From positions 1 to 64,000 of the forward strand of contig NZ_SLVF01000019.1 of the NCBI RefSeq assembly GCF_004345365.1: 64,000 nucleotides of DNA, written 5' to 3'. Source of the DNA: Kribbella sp. VKM Ac-2568. Its GTDB lineage: Bacteria > Actinomycetota > Actinomycetes > Propionibacteriales > Kribbellaceae. Below are positions 13,314-20,589 of this stretch, piece by piece; positions within the stretch are counted from its first letter, which is position 1, and every line of letters starts with the position of its first letter. The position numbers were made by a program, and so were the translations under genes. The notes under the pieces were generated by a model, which was not told the origin of the DNA, ran no database searches, and was given only the letters and a program-made list of their open reading frames with translations.

Positions 13314-14549
13314 TCAGAGCAAGGCGGCGCGGCGGCGTTGGAGGAAGCGGTTCTCGGCTTCGTTGATGGTGAGGGCAATGGCCTCATCGTAGGCCTTGAC
13401 GGCTTCGGCGGGGCGGTTGAGCCGGGCCAGTACGTCGGCGCGGGCGGCGGGCAGGTAGGAGTACGACTTGAGTGCGGGCTCGTTGCCTAGGGCATCCAGC
13501 TCGGCGAGTACCGCGTCCAGGTCGGCGCCGGGGACGAGGCTGTGGGCGGCGGCGCGGTTCAGGGCGACGATCGGAGAAGGCCAGCTGAGCAGCATCGCGT
13601 CGTACATGCGGACCACCTGGTGCCAGTCCGTCGTCTCCCAGGACGGGGCGGTCACGTGCAGGCCGGCGACCGCGGCTTGGAGGGCGAAGCGACCGCGGCC
13701 CTGCTGCAACGCGGCCGTCGCGCGGGAGACGCCTTCCGCCAGGAGGCGGGCGTCCCAGCGGGAACGGTCCTGGTCTGCGAGGAGCACCAGTTCACCGTCT
13801 TGGCTGACTCGGGCGTCGCCTCGGGCCTGCGTCATCAAGAGCAGGCCGAGCAGGGCCTGCGGTTCGGGCTCGGTCGGCATCAGCCGCACAAGGAGCCGGG
13901 CGAGCTCCAGAGCACGTCCGGTGAGGTCGGCTCGCGTCAGTTCAGGGCCCGCCGCGACGTGGCCGGCGGTGTAGACGAGCTGCACCACCGTCAGTACTGC
14001 GTCCAGGCGGTCGGCGAGCTCGTCGTCCGCGGGGATCCGGTACGGGATGTGCGCGGCGACGATCTTCTTCTTCGCCCGGGTGATTCGCGCTGCTGCGGTG
14101 GTCTCGCTGATGAGCAGGCCGGCGGCGACCTCGCGGGTGGTGAGGCCGCAGATCAGGCGGAGTGTCAGCGCGACCTGGGAGTCGCGAGCGAGCGCGGGGT
14201 GGCAGCAGGTGAACACGAGCCGGAGCGGATCGGTCGGCCGCTCGTCGTCGCCCGGTGCGGCAGGATCCTCGATCAGCAGCGGCAACTTCCGGCGCAGCGT
14301 CGTCTCCCGCCGGAGCCGATCCAGTGCGAGCCGCCGGGCGACCGTGGTGAGCCAGCCGGCGCGGTTCGTTGGAACCCCGTCGGGCCAGGTCCTCAACGCC
14401 TGTACGAAGGCATCCTGGGTGCAGTCCTCCGCAAGGTCGATGTCCCGCGTCAACCGCACCGTCGAGGCGAGCACCGTGGACCAGAACTCCCGGTGCGCCT
14501 CATCCACCAGCTGCACAACTTCCCGAGCCCCCACGCCGCCCCCACTCAC
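13314..14549 (-). CDS. ECF RNA polymerase sigma factor, ECF42-like
   Basis: About 411 aa. Sigma region 2 (RLTRDIDLAEDCTQDAFVQALR), then region 4 helix-turn-helix (LRLICGLTTREVAAGLLISE), then a ~200-aa C-terminal extension ending in TPR-like repeats (RPAEAVKAYDEAIALTINEAE), the layout of the ECF42 group. These sigma factors are not tied to a classic anti-sigma factor but to a neighbouring DGPF protein, present here directly upstream. GTG 14549 was chosen because GGAGGAGG lies ~8 nt upstream; the open frame extends to 14615. Likely stress or small-molecule response; the signal is unknown. Confidence 0.88.
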   Translation of the reverse strand: MSGGGVGAREVVQLVDEAHREFWSTVLASTVRLTRDIDLAEDCTQDAFVQALRTWPDGVPTNRAGWLTTVARRLALDRLRRETTLRRKLPLLIEDPAAPGDDERPTDPLRLVFTCCHPALARDSQVALTLRLICGLTTREVAAGLLISETTAAARITRAKKKIVAAHIPYRIPADDELADRLDAVLTVVQLVYTAGHVAAGPELTRADLTGRALELARLLVRLMPTEPEPQALLGLLLMTQARGDARVSQDGELVLLADQDRSRWDARLLAEGVSRATAALQQGRGRFALQAAVAGLHVTAPSWETTDWHQVVRMYDAMLLSWPSPIVALNRAAAHSLVPGADLDAVLAELDALGNEPALKSYSYLPAARADVLARLNRPAEAVKAYDEAIALTINEAENRFLQRRRAALL

Positions 14550-14752
14550 CCGATCCACCTCCTCCCCCGCTTCTCCCAACACACCCACCACACAACATCC
14601 CATCGCTGCCACCACTCACCAGCTGACCCGCGCCCCTCACCCCAGCCGGCCCGCGCCGCAAGCTCCCCAGGCCCTCACGCGAGCCGACCGTCCTCACCCC
14701 ACCTGCCCCCGCTGGGCACGCGAGCGAGCTCGCAGCAGTTGTTGACGTAGGC

Positions 14753-14797: not shown

Positions 14798-15166
14798 TCA
14801 GGCTGGGGGTGTGGCGCCGGACCTGGTGTCCATGACGGGGCGGACCTCGATGTTGCCTGAGGGGCAGAGCTTGGCCAGGGCCAGGGCCTGATCGAGGTCC
14901 TTGCACTCGATCACGTAGAAGCCGCCTAGGGCTTCCTTGGTCTCGATGAACGGGCCGTCGGTGACAAGCGGCTGCCCGTTGTTCTGCTTGACCGTGCTCG
15001 CCGTGGAGGACCGCTCGAGCGCCTCACCACCGAGAATGCCGGCGCCGGCCGCCTCCACCGCTTCCGCGAACGCGGTGTGCAACTTCATCTGGGACTGGAA
15101 CTCCTCCGCCGTCACCCGGTCGTACCAGTCCTCGCTGTCGAACAACAGGAACATGTACTGCGCCAT
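14798..15166 (-). CDS. DGPF (YCII-related) domain protein, partner of ECF42-like sigma
   Basis: 122 aa, one dimeric alpha-beta barrel domain of the YCII family, beginning MAQYMFLLFDSEDWY and carrying the signature VTDGPFIETKEALGGFYVIE. ATG 15166 is preceded by GAGGGAG. DGPF genes are the conserved neighbours of ECF42 sigma genes, and their promoters are often sigma targets; the function of the protein is not settled. Same strand and order as usual: DGPF first, sigma second. Confidence 0.85.
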   Translation of the reverse strand: MAQYMFLLFDSEDWYDRVTAEEFQSQMKLHTAFAEAVEAAGAGILGGEALERSSTASTVKQNNGQPLVTDGPFIETKEALGGFYVIECKDLDQALALAKLCPSGNIEVRPVMDTRSGATPPA

Positions 15167-15298
15167 CACTGGCTCCCTCGTCTCGGAGTATCTACTGACA
15201 TCTTGCTGACGAACGAGCCGTGACGGAATCGACAAACACCCCGGGCAGGTTTTCGCCTACTGTTGACCAGGTACTCAACAGACCGAGCGGAGGAACGC

Positions 15299-16756
15299 GT
15301 GGAGCATGTGGACGTGCTGGTCGTCGGAGCGGGGCTCTCCGGGATCGGGGCTGCCTACCGGCTGCAGACCCAGAGCCCGCAGCACTCGTACGCCGTGCTC
15401 GAGGCGCGGGAGGACCTGGGCGGCACCTGGGACCTGTTCCGGTACCCCGGAGTGCGCTCGGACTCCGACATGTTCACGCTCGGGTTCCCGTTCCACCCGT
15501 GGACGGCGGCCAAGGCGATCGCGGACGGCCCGTCGATCCTGGAGTACTTGCACGAGACTGCGACGACGTACGGCATCGACAAGCACATCCGCTTCGGGCG
15601 CCGCGTGGTACGGGCTTCCTGGTCGTCCAGCGAAGCTCTGTGGACAGTGGAGACGAGCCAGGAGACGTACACCTGCTCGTTCCTCTACGTCTGCAGCGGC
15701 TACTACAACTACGACTCCGGGTACGTCGTGGACTTCCCCGGGCTCGCCGAGTTCCAGGGCCGGGTGGTGCATCCGCAGCAGTGGCCGGAGGACCTCGACT
15801 ACAGCGGCCAGCGGGTCGTGGTGATCGGCAGCGGGGCGACAGCGGTGACGCTGGTACCGGCTATGGCTCCGCAAGCGGCGCACGTGACGATGCTGCAGCG
15901 GACGCCGAGTTACGTGGCGTCGCGGCCGGCGAAGGACGCATTCTCAGACCGGCTGCGGGCGATGCTGCCGGAGAACCTCGCGCACCGGCTGATCCGCGGG
16001 AAGAACGTGGCCTTCAGTTCCGCGGTGTACAGCGCGTTCCGGCGCTGGCCCACCCACGCCGCCTGGCTGCTGAACAGCACAGTCGCCAAGCAACTGCCCG
16101 ACTCGATCCCAGCGGATCCGCACTTCACGCCGCGCTACAAGCCGTGGGACCAGCGGTTGTGCCTGGTACCGGACGCCGACCTGTTCGAGTCGCTCCGGGA
16201 CGGCTCGGCCTCCGTGGTGACGGACGAGATCGAGACGTTCACTCCCACTGGCATCAAGCTGCGTTCCGGCGAGCACCTCCCGGCCGATCTGGTGGTGACC
16301 GCGACCGGCCTGCAGATGGTTGCCCTCGGCAAGATCGAGCTGACGGTCGACGGCGAGCGAGTCGACCCGCACGACACGTTCGTCTACAAGGGCATGATGC
16401 TCAGCGGAGTACCGAACCTCGCCTGGTGCATCGGCTACACCAACAACTCCTGGACCCTGCGCTCCGACCTGACCTCGCAGTACGTCTGCCGCCTGCTCAA
16501 CCACCTGGACCGCACCGGCACCCGGATCTGCGTCCCGGAGATCGACCCCGCGGAGTACGACGCGCCGCCGCGGCCGGTGGTCGACCTCTCCTCCGGCTAC
16601 ATCCGGCGCGCCGCGTCCATCCTGCCCCGCCAGGGTTCGTACGGCCCCTGGCGGCTGCGCCAGAACTACCCCCGCGACCTGGTCACCTTGCGCTACGGCT
16701 CCCTCGACGACGGCACCATGCACTTCAGATCCGCCGCCCCACAGCCAGTCGGCTGA
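15299..16756 (+). CDS. Flavin-containing monooxygenase (FAD/NAD(P)H)
   Basis: 485 aa. FAD-binding motif VLVVGAGLSGIGAAYRL at the N-terminus, a second Rossmann motif VVVIGSGATAVTLVP near residue 180 for NADPH, and GGTWDLFRYPGVRSDSDM typical of class B monooxygenases related to Baeyer-Villiger enzymes and the EthA group. It should use NADPH and O2 to oxygenate a ketone, sulfide or amine; substrate unknown. GTG 15299 has GGAGGAACGC directly upstream, so the earlier in-frame ATG at 15263 was rejected. Convergent with the citrate synthase gene. Confidence 0.88.
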   Translation: MEHVDVLVVGAGLSGIGAAYRLQTQSPQHSYAVLEAREDLGGTWDLFRYPGVRSDSDMFTLGFPFHPWTAAKAIADGPSILEYLHETATTYGIDKHIRFGRRVVRASWSSSEALWTVETSQETYTCSFLYVCSGYYNYDSGYVVDFPGLAEFQGRVVHPQQWPEDLDYSGQRVVVIGSGATAVTLVPAMAPQAAHVTMLQRTPSYVASRPAKDAFSDRLRAMLPENLAHRLIRGKNVAFSSAVYSAFRRWPTHAAWLLNSTVAKQLPDSIPADPHFTPRYKPWDQRLCLVPDADLFESLRDGSASVVTDEIETFTPTGIKLRSGEHLPADLVVTATGLQMVALGKIELTVDGERVDPHDTFVYKGMMLSGVPNLAWCIGYTNNSWTLRSDLTSQYVCRLLNHLDRTGTRICVPEIDPAEYDAPPRPVVDLSSGYIRRAASILPRQGSYGPWRLRQNYPRDLVTLRYGSLDDGTMHFRSAAPQPVG

Positions 16757-16779: not shown

Positions 16780-17934
16780 TCAGCTGGGCACGGGCACCGG
16801 CGGGACCGGGCCGACGTAGCGGGCGGCCGGGCGGATGATCTTGGGATCCTCGGACTGCTCGAGAATGTTGGCGGTCCAGCCGATCACCCGGCTGACCGCG
16901 AAGGTCGGGGTGAACATTGCCCGCGGCAACCCGCACAGCGACATCACCACGCCGGCGTAGAACTCGACGTTGGCGTACAGGTTGCGGCCGGGCTTAAGTT
17001 CGGCGAGCACCTCCACGATCCGCCGTTCCACCGTTGTGGCGAAATCGACCAGGTCGCCGCCCAGCTCGACGGCGATGTCCCGCAGCATGATCGATCGCGG
17101 GTCCTCGGTCCGGTAGACGGCGTGCCCGAAGCCCATGATGCGATCCCCCGCGGACACCTTCGCGCGGACCCACCCGTCGATCCGGTCCGGCGTACCGATC
17201 TCGTCCAGGCTGGCGAGCGCGCGGTCCGGCGCGCCGCCGTGCAGCGGTCCGGAGAACGCCCCGATCGCCCCGGCGACGGCCGACACCACGTCGGCGCCGG
17301 TCGACGCGATCACCCGGGCGGTGAAGGTCGACGCGTTGAAGCCGTGGTCGATCGTCGAGATCAGGTAGTGCTCGATCGCCCGCGCCTGCTCGGCTTCCGG
17401 CTCACGGCCCGTCACCAGATACAGCCAGTTCGCCGCCGCAGTGAGATCTGCCCGCGGCTCGAGCGGCTCCAGCCCTTCGCGCAGCCGGTACAACGCGGCC
17501 AGGATCGTCGGCGTCACCGCGCACACGAGCATGGCGTCGGCCCTGCGCCGCGCGCGATCCGCATCCCACAACGGCGGCAGCTGACGAGCGGCGGCCAGTA
17601 CGGACAAGGCGGATCGCAACCCGGCCAGCGGGTTGAAGACCGGGCCCGCCGAAGCGATGGCCGGCAACACCGCCTGTACTTCGGCCGGCAGCACGCGTAG
17701 CGGAGCCAGCTCGGCGAGGAAATCGTCCCGCTCCGAGGCGGTCGGGAGCCGTCCCTCGAACAGCAGGAACCACACGTCCTCGACCGTCTTCGAGCGAGCC
17801 AGGTCGATCGCGGAGTACTGCCGGTAGTGATAGAAACCTTCGCCTCCCCGGACGTCACCGAGCTCGGTTTCCGTCACGATGACGTTGCGCAGCCCCGGGG
17901 GTACATCGATCGGACCATCCACTGTGATTGTCAT
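16780..17934 (-). CDS. Citrate synthase-like protein (citrate synthase 2 type)
   Basis: 384 aa, all-helical citrate synthase fold. It would condense acetyl-CoA (or propionyl-CoA) with oxaloacetate. Active-site histidines are in FSGPLHGGAPD and MGFGHAVYRTEDPR. The segment that usually reads NVDF/Y with the catalytic Asp reads YANVEFYAG here, so Glu replaces Asp; such Glu variants may occur in this subgroup but I cannot check. The gene is divergent from an HTH-citrate synthase with 74 bp between start codons. No clear ribosome binding site precedes ATG 17934, so it may be leaderless. Confidence 0.85.
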   Translation of the reverse strand: MTITVDGPIDVPPGLRNVIVTETELGDVRGGEGFYHYRQYSAIDLARSKTVEDVWFLLFEGRLPTASERDDFLAELAPLRVLPAEVQAVLPAIASAGPVFNPLAGLRSALSVLAAARQLPPLWDADRARRRADAMLVCAVTPTILAALYRLREGLEPLEPRADLTAAANWLYLVTGREPEAEQARAIEHYLISTIDHGFNASTFTARVIASTGADVVSAVAGAIGAFSGPLHGGAPDRALASLDEIGTPDRIDGWVRAKVSAGDRIMGFGHAVYRTEDPRSIMLRDIAVELGGDLVDFATTVERRIVEVLAELKPGRNLYANVEFYAGVVMSLCGLPRAMFTPTFAVSRVIGWTANILEQSEDPKIIRPAARYVGPVPPVPVPS

Positions 17935-17961
17935 AAGCTCAGCGTTGAATCGCGATCAAGT

Positions 17962-17990
17962 ATTGTCAATGTTGATCCAGTCAACATAAG
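17962..17990 (+). promoter_or_regulatory. Palindromic operator inside a putative promoter of the HTH-citrate synthase gene
   Basis: ATGTTGA (17969-17975) and TCAACAT (17981-17987) form a perfect 7-bp inverted repeat with 5-bp spacer. It sits between a possible -35 TTGTCA (17963-17968) and -10 CATAAG (17985-17990), 16 bp apart, upstream of GGAGGA and ATG 18009. A related TTGA-n7-TCAA pair lies at 17944-17958, nearer the divergent gene. The arrangement suits repression of both genes by one regulator, possibly the HTH-bearing product itself. Confidence 0.5.
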
Positions 17991-18008
17991 CGCTCGGAGG
18001 AGCGGCGG

Positions 18009-19166
18009 ATGGTGCAGCAGAGTGACGAGAATTACCTGACGACGGCCGAGGTGGCCCGTCGGCTGAAGGTGAAGCCGGAGACGATCTACGCCTATGTGAG
18101 CCGCGGTCAGCTCACCAGCGTTCGGGCACGCGGTCGTCGCGGCAGCCTGTTCGCGGCGGCCGACGTCGAACGGCTGGCGAGCCGGACCGTCGATCACCCC
18201 GGCGTGGTGGAGCGGATCGAGTCGGAGCTGTCCCTGCTGGCAGACGACGAGTTGTACTACCGAGGTCACTCGGTCCGCGATCTGGCGACCACGCAGTCGG
18301 TGGAGTCCGTGGCACAGCTCCTGTGGACCGGCCTGCTTGATGAGAGCGAGCCCTTCCCAGCGCCGCCCGACGTGGTCGCCCTGGCCCGCACCGCGATGGA
18401 CGTCGCGCCTCCGGGTGCGCGCATGACGGATCAGCTGCGCATCGCCGTCGCAGTACTGGGTGCCGGTGATCCGATGCGGTTCGACCTCGCGCCGGAGTCC
18501 GTGGTGCTCGCCGCGCGCCGTCTGCTCGGAGTACTGATCGAGGCGCTGCCTGGCGAGGCCGGCGAGGGCACCTTCGGAGGGCGGTTGTGGCCCAAACTGT
18601 CGACGCGATCGCCCGAGCCACGTGTGCTCGAGGCCGCGGCGATCCTGCTCGCCGATCATGGGCTGGCCGTCTCCACCGTCGCCGCGCGCGTCGCCGCCAG
18701 CGCCAGAGCCAACCTGTACTCCGTGGTATCGGCCGGACTCGGCGCACTCGACGGGCATTACCACGGCGCCGCGACCACCTTGGCGTACCGGTTCCTGGAC
18801 CGAGCTCTCAGGGATCCCGTCGAGGTGTTGTCGGACCAGCTGCGCTCGGGCGAGCCGGTGCCGGGCTTCGGGCATCGGATCTACCAGCAGCGCGATCCAC
18901 GAGCAGAGGCGCTCTTCGAGCTGGTCGCCGGCGAGCCGGTGATGGAGACGGTCCGGGTGATCACCGGGCAGCTCGCGGGCTTCCCGAACAGCGATCTGGC
19001 CGTCGCCGCGATGATGCACGCGTACGGATTCCGGCCGGATGCGGGCGAGGCCTTGTTCGCCCTCGCCCGCATCATCGGCTGGACCGCTCACGCGCTGGAG
19101 GAGTACGCCGAGCCGGGGCTCCGCTTCCGGGCCCTCGGCGTCTACACCGGCCCGGCGGTCACCTGA
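18009..19166 (+). CDS. Citrate synthase-fold protein with N-terminal DNA-binding HTH
   Basis: 385 aa. Residues ~8-58 are a MerR/excisionase-type helix-turn-helix (LTTAEVARRLKVKPETIYAY, VRARGRRGSLFAAADVERL). Residues ~65-385 are a citrate synthase domain with DGHYHGAATTL, PGFGHRIYQQRDPR and FPNSDLAVAAMM, so His, His and Asp positions are kept. Start ATG 18009 follows GGAGGAGCGGCGG. Such fusions exist in actinobacteria and are usually annotated just as citrate synthase; a DNA-binding, metabolite-sensing role is inference from domain order and from the palindrome in the shared upstream region. Confidence 0.85.
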   Translation: MVQQSDENYLTTAEVARRLKVKPETIYAYVSRGQLTSVRARGRRGSLFAAADVERLASRTVDHPGVVERIESELSLLADDELYYRGHSVRDLATTQSVESVAQLLWTGLLDESEPFPAPPDVVALARTAMDVAPPGARMTDQLRIAVAVLGAGDPMRFDLAPESVVLAARRLLGVLIEALPGEAGEGTFGGRLWPKLSTRSPEPRVLEAAAILLADHGLAVSTVAARVAASARANLYSVVSAGLGALDGHYHGAATTLAYRFLDRALRDPVEVLSDQLRSGEPVPGFGHRIYQQRDPRAEALFELVAGEPVMETVRVITGQLAGFPNSDLAVAAMMHAYGFRPDAGEALFALARIIGWTAHALEEYAEPGLRFRALGVYTGPAVT

Positions 19167-19179
19167 CCTGGAGCCGGCG

Positions 19180-20589
19180 TTACTTCACCTTGAGCCGGAG
19201 CAGGGTTGCAGCGCCGGGTGCGAGGTTCACCGGTACGGCGCTGCCGCGCTGCGCGCCGAACTGCTTCGAGATCGCCTGGAACACCTCGACCCCGTAGACC
19301 TTGGCCGGGTCGACCGTCACCGTCGCGCGGGTGCTGGCGCTGTGGGACCGGTTCGCCACCAGCAGCCAGCGATCCTTGACCGCGGTGTCGCGGCTGCGGA
19401 AGGTGCCCACGACAACTGGTTGCTCGGAGATCCCGGTGACCAGCTCGGTCGGGGTGAAGCCGACGGCCCCGTTCGGCAACGGCGTCTCGTTGGCGTGCAC
19501 GACCGACTCGGACACCAACGGCTTGAGCTCGCGCCCGACCTGGTGGAGCCAGGTGGTGTTGATCTTCTTGGCCGCGGCGTACCGGCTGGTGCGCTGGCCG
19601 TCCACGGTGATCAGCGCGGGCCCGAACCCCTCGCCGCGCGCCGCCTCAGGGGTCCAGTAGGTGAAGTACTGGATGCCCTTGGCGCCGTAGGCGAGGCTGA
19701 CGTTGACCTGCCAGAGCAGCTCGGCCGCGGTCGGCTCCCGATGCCCGTTGTAGGCCAGAGTCTGGATGAACACCCACGCCGGTACGTCGCCTCGCAGCGC
19801 GGCGTCTCGCACGATCGCCCAGTTGTGGAAGTAGTTCGCGTCCTCGCGGCCCTCGGAGAGCAGCGGATAGCGGTCGAACGAGACGAGCGACGGCTTCACC
19901 ACGTCGACGAAGTCCCGGTAGTAGTTCGGATCGTCCGACGGGAACAGGTTGATGTAGGGCAGCAACTGCGGCGCGAGCTCCCGCGAGACGGCCAGCGTCT
20001 TGGCGAGCGTGCCGAACCAGCCCGGCCCGGGTTCGTCGTAGAAGTTGAAGCCGGCGAGCGACGAGAACGGGCCGTAGGCATCCCTGGCCCGGGTGTAGAA
20101 CTCGCGCGCCTCGGCCGGTGTGATGGTGAGGAAGTCGGCCGGGTTGTCGGAGATGGCGAACCAGCGGGACATGTTGCGGATCTGGATGTCGTCCGAGATC
20201 AGCATCTGCAACCCGGCGTCACGGGCCAGACCGAGCTGGTACTGGAAGATGTTGCCGTCACCCGCGTAGTTGCCCGAGATGACGAAGTCGAACCCGGCCT
20301 CGGCGATCTCGGTGAAGCGCTCCGGCGTACTGGCGTAGGGATGCGGCGGCCAGAACAACCCGACCGGGAACTCCGCGCCGCCGGTCAGCGGCAGGGTGTC
20401 GGGCGACGGGATCGCCGCAGCGTCGATTGCAGCATTGGTGCCTGCAGCAACGTTTGCGACTGAGGTGCCGGTTGAGGCCGCTGCGGTGCCAGCGGTGGCA
20501 CCGGCTGCTGCTAGCGAGGCAGCGGTTGCGCCGGCGCCGAGTAGCAGGGTGCGGCGGCTGGGGCCGAGGATCCGGTGGGGGCTTTGCAT
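19180..20589 (-). CDS. Tat-exported glycosidase-like (TIM-barrel) protein
   Basis: 469 aa. Twin-arginine signal peptide (PSRRTLLLGAGATAASLAAA) followed by an Ala/Thr-rich linker. The mature part resembles glycoside hydrolase TIM barrels: GLFWPPHPY, AEAGFDFVISGNYAGDG, FNFYDEPGPGWF (candidate acid/base Glu), VSFDRYPLL, GAKGIQYFTYWTP, then a small beta-rich C-terminal domain. Exact GH family and substrate cannot be named. GGAGGAGAACC precedes ATG 20589. It follows an RpiR-type regulator by 93 bp in the same direction, so the pair may be a sugar-responsive unit. Confidence 0.75.
   Translation of the reverse strand: MQSPHRILGPSRRTLLLGAGATAASLAAAGATAGTAAASTGTSVANVAAGTNAAIDAAAIPSPDTLPLTGGAEFPVGLFWPPHPYASTPERFTEIAEAGFDFVISGNYAGDGNIFQYQLGLARDAGLQMLISDDIQIRNMSRWFAISDNPADFLTITPAEAREFYTRARDAYGPFSSLAGFNFYDEPGPGWFGTLAKTLAVSRELAPQLLPYINLFPSDDPNYYRDFVDVVKPSLVSFDRYPLLSEGREDANYFHNWAIVRDAALRGDVPAWVFIQTLAYNGHREPTAAELLWQVNVSLAYGAKGIQYFTYWTPEAARGEGFGPALITVDGQRTSRYAAAKKINTTWLHQVGRELKPLVSESVVHANETPLPNGAVGFTPTELVTGISEQPVVVGTFRSRDTAVKDRWLLVANRSHSASTRATVTVDPAKVYGVEVFQAISKQFGAQRGSAVPVNLAPGAATLLRLKVK

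Follow-up and report, generated by a model that had tools for sequence, protein, structure and literature searches.

The citrate synthase gene pair and its intergenic region

The stretch analysed here (the window) comprises the first 64,000 nucleotides of contig NZ_SLVF01000019.1 of Kribbella sp. VKM Ac-2568 (assembly GCF_004345365.1) and contains a divergent pair of citrate synthase (CS) genes, one of which is fused to a helix-turn-helix (HTH) DNA-binding domain (Table 1). An initial annotation had described this fusion as facing a plain CS across 74 bp (17935-18008), and the open reading frames (ORFs), strands and domains were all found as claimed. The results presented below make it quite probable that the fusion protein is a citrate-synthase-fold transcription factor acting on a palindrome in this gap, with the plain CS gene as its main target; it may serve as an activator of CS sensing oxaloacetate or citrate.

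Table 1. Features of the divergent pair in the window, and the interrupted CS loci of two other genomes
Feature	Position	Strand	Basis and remarks
Plain citrate synthase (CS), 384 amino acids	16780-17934	−	PF00285; candidate target, with Glu324 in place of the catalytic Asp
HTH–citrate synthase fusion, 385 amino acids	18009-19166	+	ORF, Pfam/NCBIfam and AlphaFold; proposed regulator
HTH_17 (excisionase/MerR/BldC-like) DNA-binding domain, fusion residues 9-57	18033-18179	+	PF12728, TIGR01764
Citrate synthase domain of the fusion, residues 70-367	18216-19109	+	PF00285; H217, H252, H289, R298, D329 and R354 retained, R374 just beyond
Perfect 7-5-7 palindrome ATGTTGA-TCCAG-TCAACAT, proposed operator	17969-17987		Sequence and conservation
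TTGACA (+ strand: TGTCAA), −35-like hexamer of the putative CS promoter that overlaps the conserved block	17964-17969	−	TTGAC/TTGACA counts
AACGCT, −10-like element of the putative CS promoter, 17-bp spacing	17941-17946	−	xANNNT counts
GGAGGA, probable ribosome-binding site for the fusion ORF	17996-18001	+	Sequence
Interrupted CS loci in two Streptomyces-type genomes	L249, L251 = G388:C53, ~654.7-769.8 kb; L252, L253 = G291:C7, ~86.7-249.4 kb		

The fusion protein matches HTH_17 with 35.6 bits (cut-off 27) and the CS family with an expect value (E) of 1.3e-51, and its HTH lies above the cut-off of TIGR01764 (30.2 versus 28.8 bits). It falls far short of the NCBIfam enzyme cut-off of TIGR01800 (129 versus 421.3 bits). 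The plain CS matches PF00285 over its full length (1-357 of 357, E 9.8e-110); it is below the TIGR01800 cut-off too (331.3 versus 421.3 bits), narrowly misses that of PRK12350.1 (NF009005; 322.8 versus 332 bits) and is closest among solved sequences to 2c6x (E 9.5e-76), which we take to be CitA of B. subtilis. The solved sequences nearest to the HTH of the fusion are 6ama (E 5e-4) and 6amk (E 6e-4), both presumably BldC. BldC lacks an enzyme domain and recognises direct repeats, and the match of the fusion to the BldC model NF033787 is weak (21.8 bits, cut-off 77).

The 7-5-7 palindrome mentioned in the initial annotation is indeed perfect. The further TTGA/TCAA half-sites are likewise present, namely the TGTCAA of Table 1, which overlaps a conserved TCAAYRTTGA block and reads TTGACA on the CS strand, and a TTGA at 17945 with a TCAA at 17956, a pair retained just partly within the genus as judged by eye. 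In a single sequence the palindrome is merely moderately unusual: a perfect 7-bp inverted repeat with a loop of up to 12 occurred in 3.2% of mononucleotide shuffles and in 4.1% of first-order Markov randomisations of the 74-bp gap. The case therefore rests on comparison across genomes.

Conservation of the proposed operator

We compared 142 distinct divergent regions with a CS match above 150 bits and genes no more than 1200 bp apart, identical regions being counted once. The motif TCAAYRTTGA-N5..8-TCAAYR was present exactly in 119 of these and with up to 2 mismatches in 16 positions in 134, 98 of the latter coming from outside the genus Kribbella; 135 regions scored above all of 100 shuffles. 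Conservation of the palindrome in orthologous intergenic regions, the check suggested along with the initial annotation, is thus borne out. Within the genus (n=36) the motif was exact in 35 regions and had one mismatch in the remaining one. The other 106 regions comprised 84 exact cases, seven with one, seven with two, four with three, three with four and one with six mismatches. The three- and four-mismatch cases, seven loci in all, come from a single genus (g65), and the locus with six (L077) has a broken CS gene with wrong boundaries, where an exact site is present on direct reading. A spacer of 5 prevails among the regions with up to two mismatches (36/36 in the genus, 84/98 elsewhere), and spacers of 6, 7 and 8 occur in some lineages.

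Actinoplanes-type loci carry a different, diverged CS (34-39% identity) in the same place, and the operator is exact in 13/13 of them; for four of these the 300 bp ahead of the fusion match had shown no such site, and the wider region gave the exact motif in all. When longer stretches were read for 10 phylum-level loci outside the class, a divergent CS was found beside the fusion in 8/10, with a site of spacer 8 in 5/10 and of spacer 5 in one; the others were weaker.

The proposed operator tracks the plain CS gene

The two genes are convergent in family f4, and in 8/8 genomes a site lies upstream of CS; the 300 bp preceding the fusion, whose neighbour here is another gene, yielded none (8/8; up to 2 mismatches in 13 positions at spacing 5, two loci also at spacings 5-7). 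In one further genome (G122) the CS gene is 2.8 kb distant and is preceded by a two-mismatch site. Five genomes had a fusion without adjacent CS in the locus first fetched, and none of them showed a site beside the fusion; for two of the five, CS was later located near by, with the site at CS. A different arrangement was seen in G304, which has a one-mismatch site 16 bp ahead of where the fusion match starts, an MDMPI_N-like ORF as neighbour on the opposite side, and no CS detected at E <= 1e-60.

Only one site with up to one mismatch was detected in the 8.9-Mb genome of the strain itself, and a large regulon in this genome is unsupported. Among 24 listed exact matches to TCAAYRTTGATNNNNTCAAY across 296 genomes, 21 sit at fusion/CS genes (positions compared by eye).

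In family f4 (L043-L045, L047, L048, L050-L052) the start of the fusion gene is close to, and divergent from, a gene that reads by eye like a class II fumarate hydratase, another enzyme of the tricarboxylic acid (TCA) cycle. In Smaragdicoccus niigatensis (L171), whose fusion has no adjoining CS, the upstream ORF on the opposite strand resembles a flavin adenine dinucleotide (FAD)-dependent oxidoreductase, again by eye.

In two Streptomyces-type genomes, about 115 and 163 kb of DNA split the CS gene of the pair at the codons for YRQ/Y, and both insertions share their 5' junction (Table 1). In G291 an ORF of the phage integrase family (PF00589, E 7.7e-14) adjoins the 3' junction, and the inserts look like an integrative element with the CS gene as attachment site. 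The insert of G388 carries a full-length CS gene of its own (L250, G388:C53:673670-674797), and a copy of the operator with one mismatch lies about 77 bp ahead of the match, as though this gene took the place of the one disrupted by the insert.

Distribution and co-occurrence of the pair

The fusion was found in 36/38 genomes of the genus Kribbella, in 50/196 sampled from the order, in 53/296 from the class and, with an alignment query and a stricter cut, in 29/296 from the phylum, the thresholds differing between these levels. The 80 named loci kept include Kribbella, Amycolatopsis, Rhodococcus, Gordonia, Williamsia, Nocardia, Streptomyces, Actinoplanes and Micromonospora. A search of plasmids gave just two matches on large replicons, without listed genes.

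Both Kribbella members without the fusion also lack a close CS. Of the 296 class genomes, 47 contain the CS and 53 the fusion; 45 have both, two CS only, eight the fusion only and 241 neither (Fisher p ~2e-42, uncorrected for kinship). One of the two genomes with CS only (G426) has a fragment of the fusion at a contig end, and the other (G210) is 78% complete with its CS cut by a contig edge. The proposal of the initial annotation that the fusion controls its own paralogue is, at the level of sequence, well supported by this co-occurrence together with the conservation of the operator and its tracking of CS in rearranged loci, the pattern expected of a dedicated local transcription factor.

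Fold, active-site pocket and likely ligand

The AlphaFold model of the fusion has a mean predicted local distance difference test (pLDDT) score of 90.1, and its residues 59-385 share the fold of citrate and methylcitrate synthases, with 1a59 as the best superposition (Z 36.6, 3.0 Å over 324 residues). For the comparison of residues, 115 fusion and 109 CS sequences were found, of which 81 and 77 were kept after identical ones had been collapsed; 10 fusion and 5 CS sequences that were cut off or short were dropped in addition. Two alignments were made from 30 and 24 chosen sequences. The pocket is retained in the fusion orthologues: H217, H252, R298, D329 and R354 in 81/81, R374 in 80/81 and H289 in 79/81. 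We take these residues, by role and numbering, to be the catalytic His-His-Asp and the His and Arg residues that bind oxaloacetate. The triad is thereby retained in 81, 79 and 81 of 81 sequences, its Asp standing where the partner CS has Glu.

A different pattern was observed at two positions, four residues after the second catalytic His and seven before the catalytic acid, which presumably correspond to the coenzyme A (CoA)-phosphate contacts R324 and K368 of pig CS. Both are basic in only 1/81 fusions compared to 75/77 partner CS, and five solved enzymes have K/R at both (by eye). Since the pocket for oxaloacetate or citrate is retained and the basic CoA contacts are lost, oxaloacetate or citrate is likelier as ligand than acetyl-CoA, which would be the least likely of the three ligands suggested in the initial annotation. 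The simplest reading of these residues is that the pocket may still close on oxaloacetate or citrate and no longer handle CoA. Acetyl-CoA as first-choice ligand is set back by the loss of the basic positions.

All 77 plain CS orthologues have Glu at the position of the catalytic Asp. The same Glu occurs in 2c6x, in another CS of the strain's own genome and of several relatives (L004 and others), and is therefore neither specific to the pair nor proof of inactivity. The idea that the CS is unusual in its Glu324 because of the regulator was ruled out by these occurrences.

Geometry of the putative CS promoter and sign of regulation

The conserved block overlaps a putative promoter of the CS gene. 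In the 134 regions with up to two mismatches the −35-like hexamer reads TTGAC- in 126 and TTGACA in 88. We observed xANNNT 17 or 18 bp after it in 48/48 hand-picked loci, often as GACAGT; these represent about one locus per genus plus several of Kribbella and Streptomyces, exclusive of g65 and the loci outside the class. Among the 134 regions the pattern was found in 131 (36/36 in the genus, 95/98 others; shuffles mean 17.7, maximum 28), a test that is just partly fresh because many of the 48 loci defining the pattern are also among the 134.

In the window the start codon of CS follows six bases after the −10-like hexamer, and the CS mRNA may therefore be leaderless. The palindrome shares one base with the −35-like hexamer, its centre lying near −45. 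This is a place typical of activators that contact the −35 element, so that activation of CS by the fusion appears the better guess, held with a slight preference over repression.

A second site at a CoA-transferase gene

An unlinked second site was detected before a CoA-transferase family III gene (PF02515) in genomes of genus g47, which we take to be Streptomyces because its loci look like the named Streptomyces loci. The first examples came from G213 and G301, both with the fusion retained and no close CS, and from G435. With up to 1 mismatch in 14 positions it is present in 6/11 g47 genomes bearing the fusion and in 0/10 without it (Fisher p 0.012), with up to 3 mismatches in 8/11 versus 0/10 (p 0.001); kinship, uncorrected in these tests, may inflate the association. 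Without the three discovery genomes the values are 3/8 (p 0.069) and 5/8 (p 0.007). The CoA-transferase III gene was not found at threshold in 6/27 searched genomes. As evidence linking the motif to the fusion protein, the second site is partly independent.

Proposed model and alternative explanations

According to the model we favour, the fusion would bind AYRTTGA-N5-TCAAYRT as a citrate-synthase-like dimer, the bound palindrome lying just upstream of the −35 of the plain CS gene and touching it. The plain CS would be the main target, perhaps together with the fusion's own promoter where the genes are divergent, and activation of CS the most likely outcome. The domain movement of the fusion would probably be set by oxaloacetate or citrate in the retained pocket and not by acetyl-CoA, catalysis presumably having been lost.

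Several observations weigh against this model or parts of it. The spacer between the arms varies from 5 to 8 bp, and the seven loci of g65 have lost the left TCAA (now GATA), with the inner palindrome retained. Eight class genomes contain the fusion without a close CS at threshold, and most one-mismatch matches in other genomes are away from fusion/CS genes, many of them in small genomes. The xANNNT pattern was picked after the first 48 loci had been viewed, and a canonical TANNNT at 16-19 bp was present in 0/48 loci (shuffles mean 2.35). The proximity of the second site to the start codon of the CoA-transferase gene fits a repressor better, and the conserved triad leaves residual catalysis by the fusion possible. 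Furthermore, other regulators have been reported at similar gene pairs. In the available excerpts of the respective papers, MtrA binds the intergenic region of SCO5831-SCO5832 in S. coelicolor and both genes are up late in growth in an mtrA mutant (PMC12323332), RspA1 binds and activates the pair slnwt_1427/1428 of S. albus (PMC7411085), and a review places citrate synthase genes of Saccharopolyspora under GlnR control.

The palindrome might accordingly belong to MtrA, GlnR, RspA1, DasR or a similar regulator controlling both genes, the fusion being an accessory enzyme or acting elsewhere. The printed MtrA consensus, GTAACC-N5-GTAACC (PMC12323332), is however unlike TCAAYRTTGA-N5-TCAAYR. The near confinement of exact sites to the pair locus is not what a global regulator would leave, and the unlinked second site was seen only where the fusion is present, so that we consider this explanation distinctly improbable. 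A trigger enzyme, that is, a fusion still active as (methyl)citrate synthase and binding DNA when substrate is scarce, would account for the retained His-His-Asp, but not for the loss of the basic CoA-contact positions, or for the distance of the fusion from the NCBIfam enzyme cut-off, and seems improbable to us as well.

Alternatively it might be that the fusion is a regulatory subunit in a hetero-oligomer with the plain CS, the HTH just tuning expression and the co-inheritance resulting from the protein complex. The pair stays adjacent even when convergent, both proteins retain the citrate synthase fold, and their close co-occurrence is in line with a complex, too. A complex leaves unexplained, however, why an operator is conserved at the CS promoter with an extra copy at the CoA-transferase gene, and in the Actinoplanes-type loci the same operator precedes a different CS. 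We regard this explanation as unlikely; it is compatible with a role of the fusion as regulator, the two not being exclusive.

A wider reading, for which we see about even chances, is that the fusions form a phylum-wide family of transcription factors using the citrate synthase fold as a catalysis-poor sensor of oxaloacetate or citrate, which drive a dedicated alternative CS and, in some Streptomyces-type genomes, also a CoA-transferase III gene.

Relation to known systems

SCO5831/SCO5832 (citA3/citA4) are called putative citrate synthases in the excerpts of PMC12323332, and the abundance of SCO5831 is described as phosphate-dependent in those of PMC9739823 and PMC8981147. The S. albus genes run in opposite directions over 194 bp, and slnwt_1428 is called distinctive from traditional citrate synthases (PMC7411085, in the part available). 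Like the pair in the window, both pairs are neighbours with a shared intergenic region; they are presumably orthologous to it, judging from arrangement, names and genus rather than from alignment. An HTH or a regulatory role is not mentioned in the excerpts of these accounts.

MocR/GabR regulators, which combine a winged HTH (wHTH) with an aminotransferase fold, likewise join a DNA-binding domain at the N-terminus to a complete metabolic-enzyme fold acting as sensor, and GabR is said to activate transcription (PMC6917764, PMC5320631, both in excerpts). The fusion differs from them in having HTH_17 and not GntR, a citrate synthase fold and presumably a di- or tricarboxylate as ligand; neither the GntR wHTH nor the aminotransferase fold is among its four Pfam matches at E 0.001. 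By analogy, it may work like MocR/GabR-type enzyme-fold regulators while standing outside that family and, by cut-off, outside BldC. The fold is shared with Type II citrate synthases (2c6x and CitA of M. tuberculosis, 8gm9), from which the fusion is distinguished by its HTH and the absence of the basic CoA-contact positions. The plain CS has 2c6x as its best match and shares with it the Glu at the catalytic-Asp position.

Enzyme-fold transcription factors are known, and among open-licence papers we found no description of a citrate-synthase-fold fusion as regulator. The HTH–CS architecture has probably been annotated automatically via Pfam already, the new part being the functional case. If true, the expression of an alternative enzyme for entry into the TCA cycle would be tied directly to an intermediate of this cycle in a bacterial group known for antibiotics, and a protein counted as a citrate synthase in Streptomyces publications would be recast. 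The operator, the putative promoter and the specific ligand hypothesis are directly testable.

Neighbouring genes

A flavin-containing monooxygenase (FMO)-like gene at 15263-16756 of the window adjoins CS. Next to the fusion gene on its downstream side, the opposite strand (19180-20589, −) encodes a protein of 469 amino acids that may carry a twin-arginine signal, as judged by eye, and that has no match in Pfam at E 0.001. At 13314-14615 (−) a sigma-factor-like protein (Sigma70 regions 2 and 4, DUF6596) is encoded beside a YCII-domain protein (14798-15235, −), a pairing that is common in actinobacteria.

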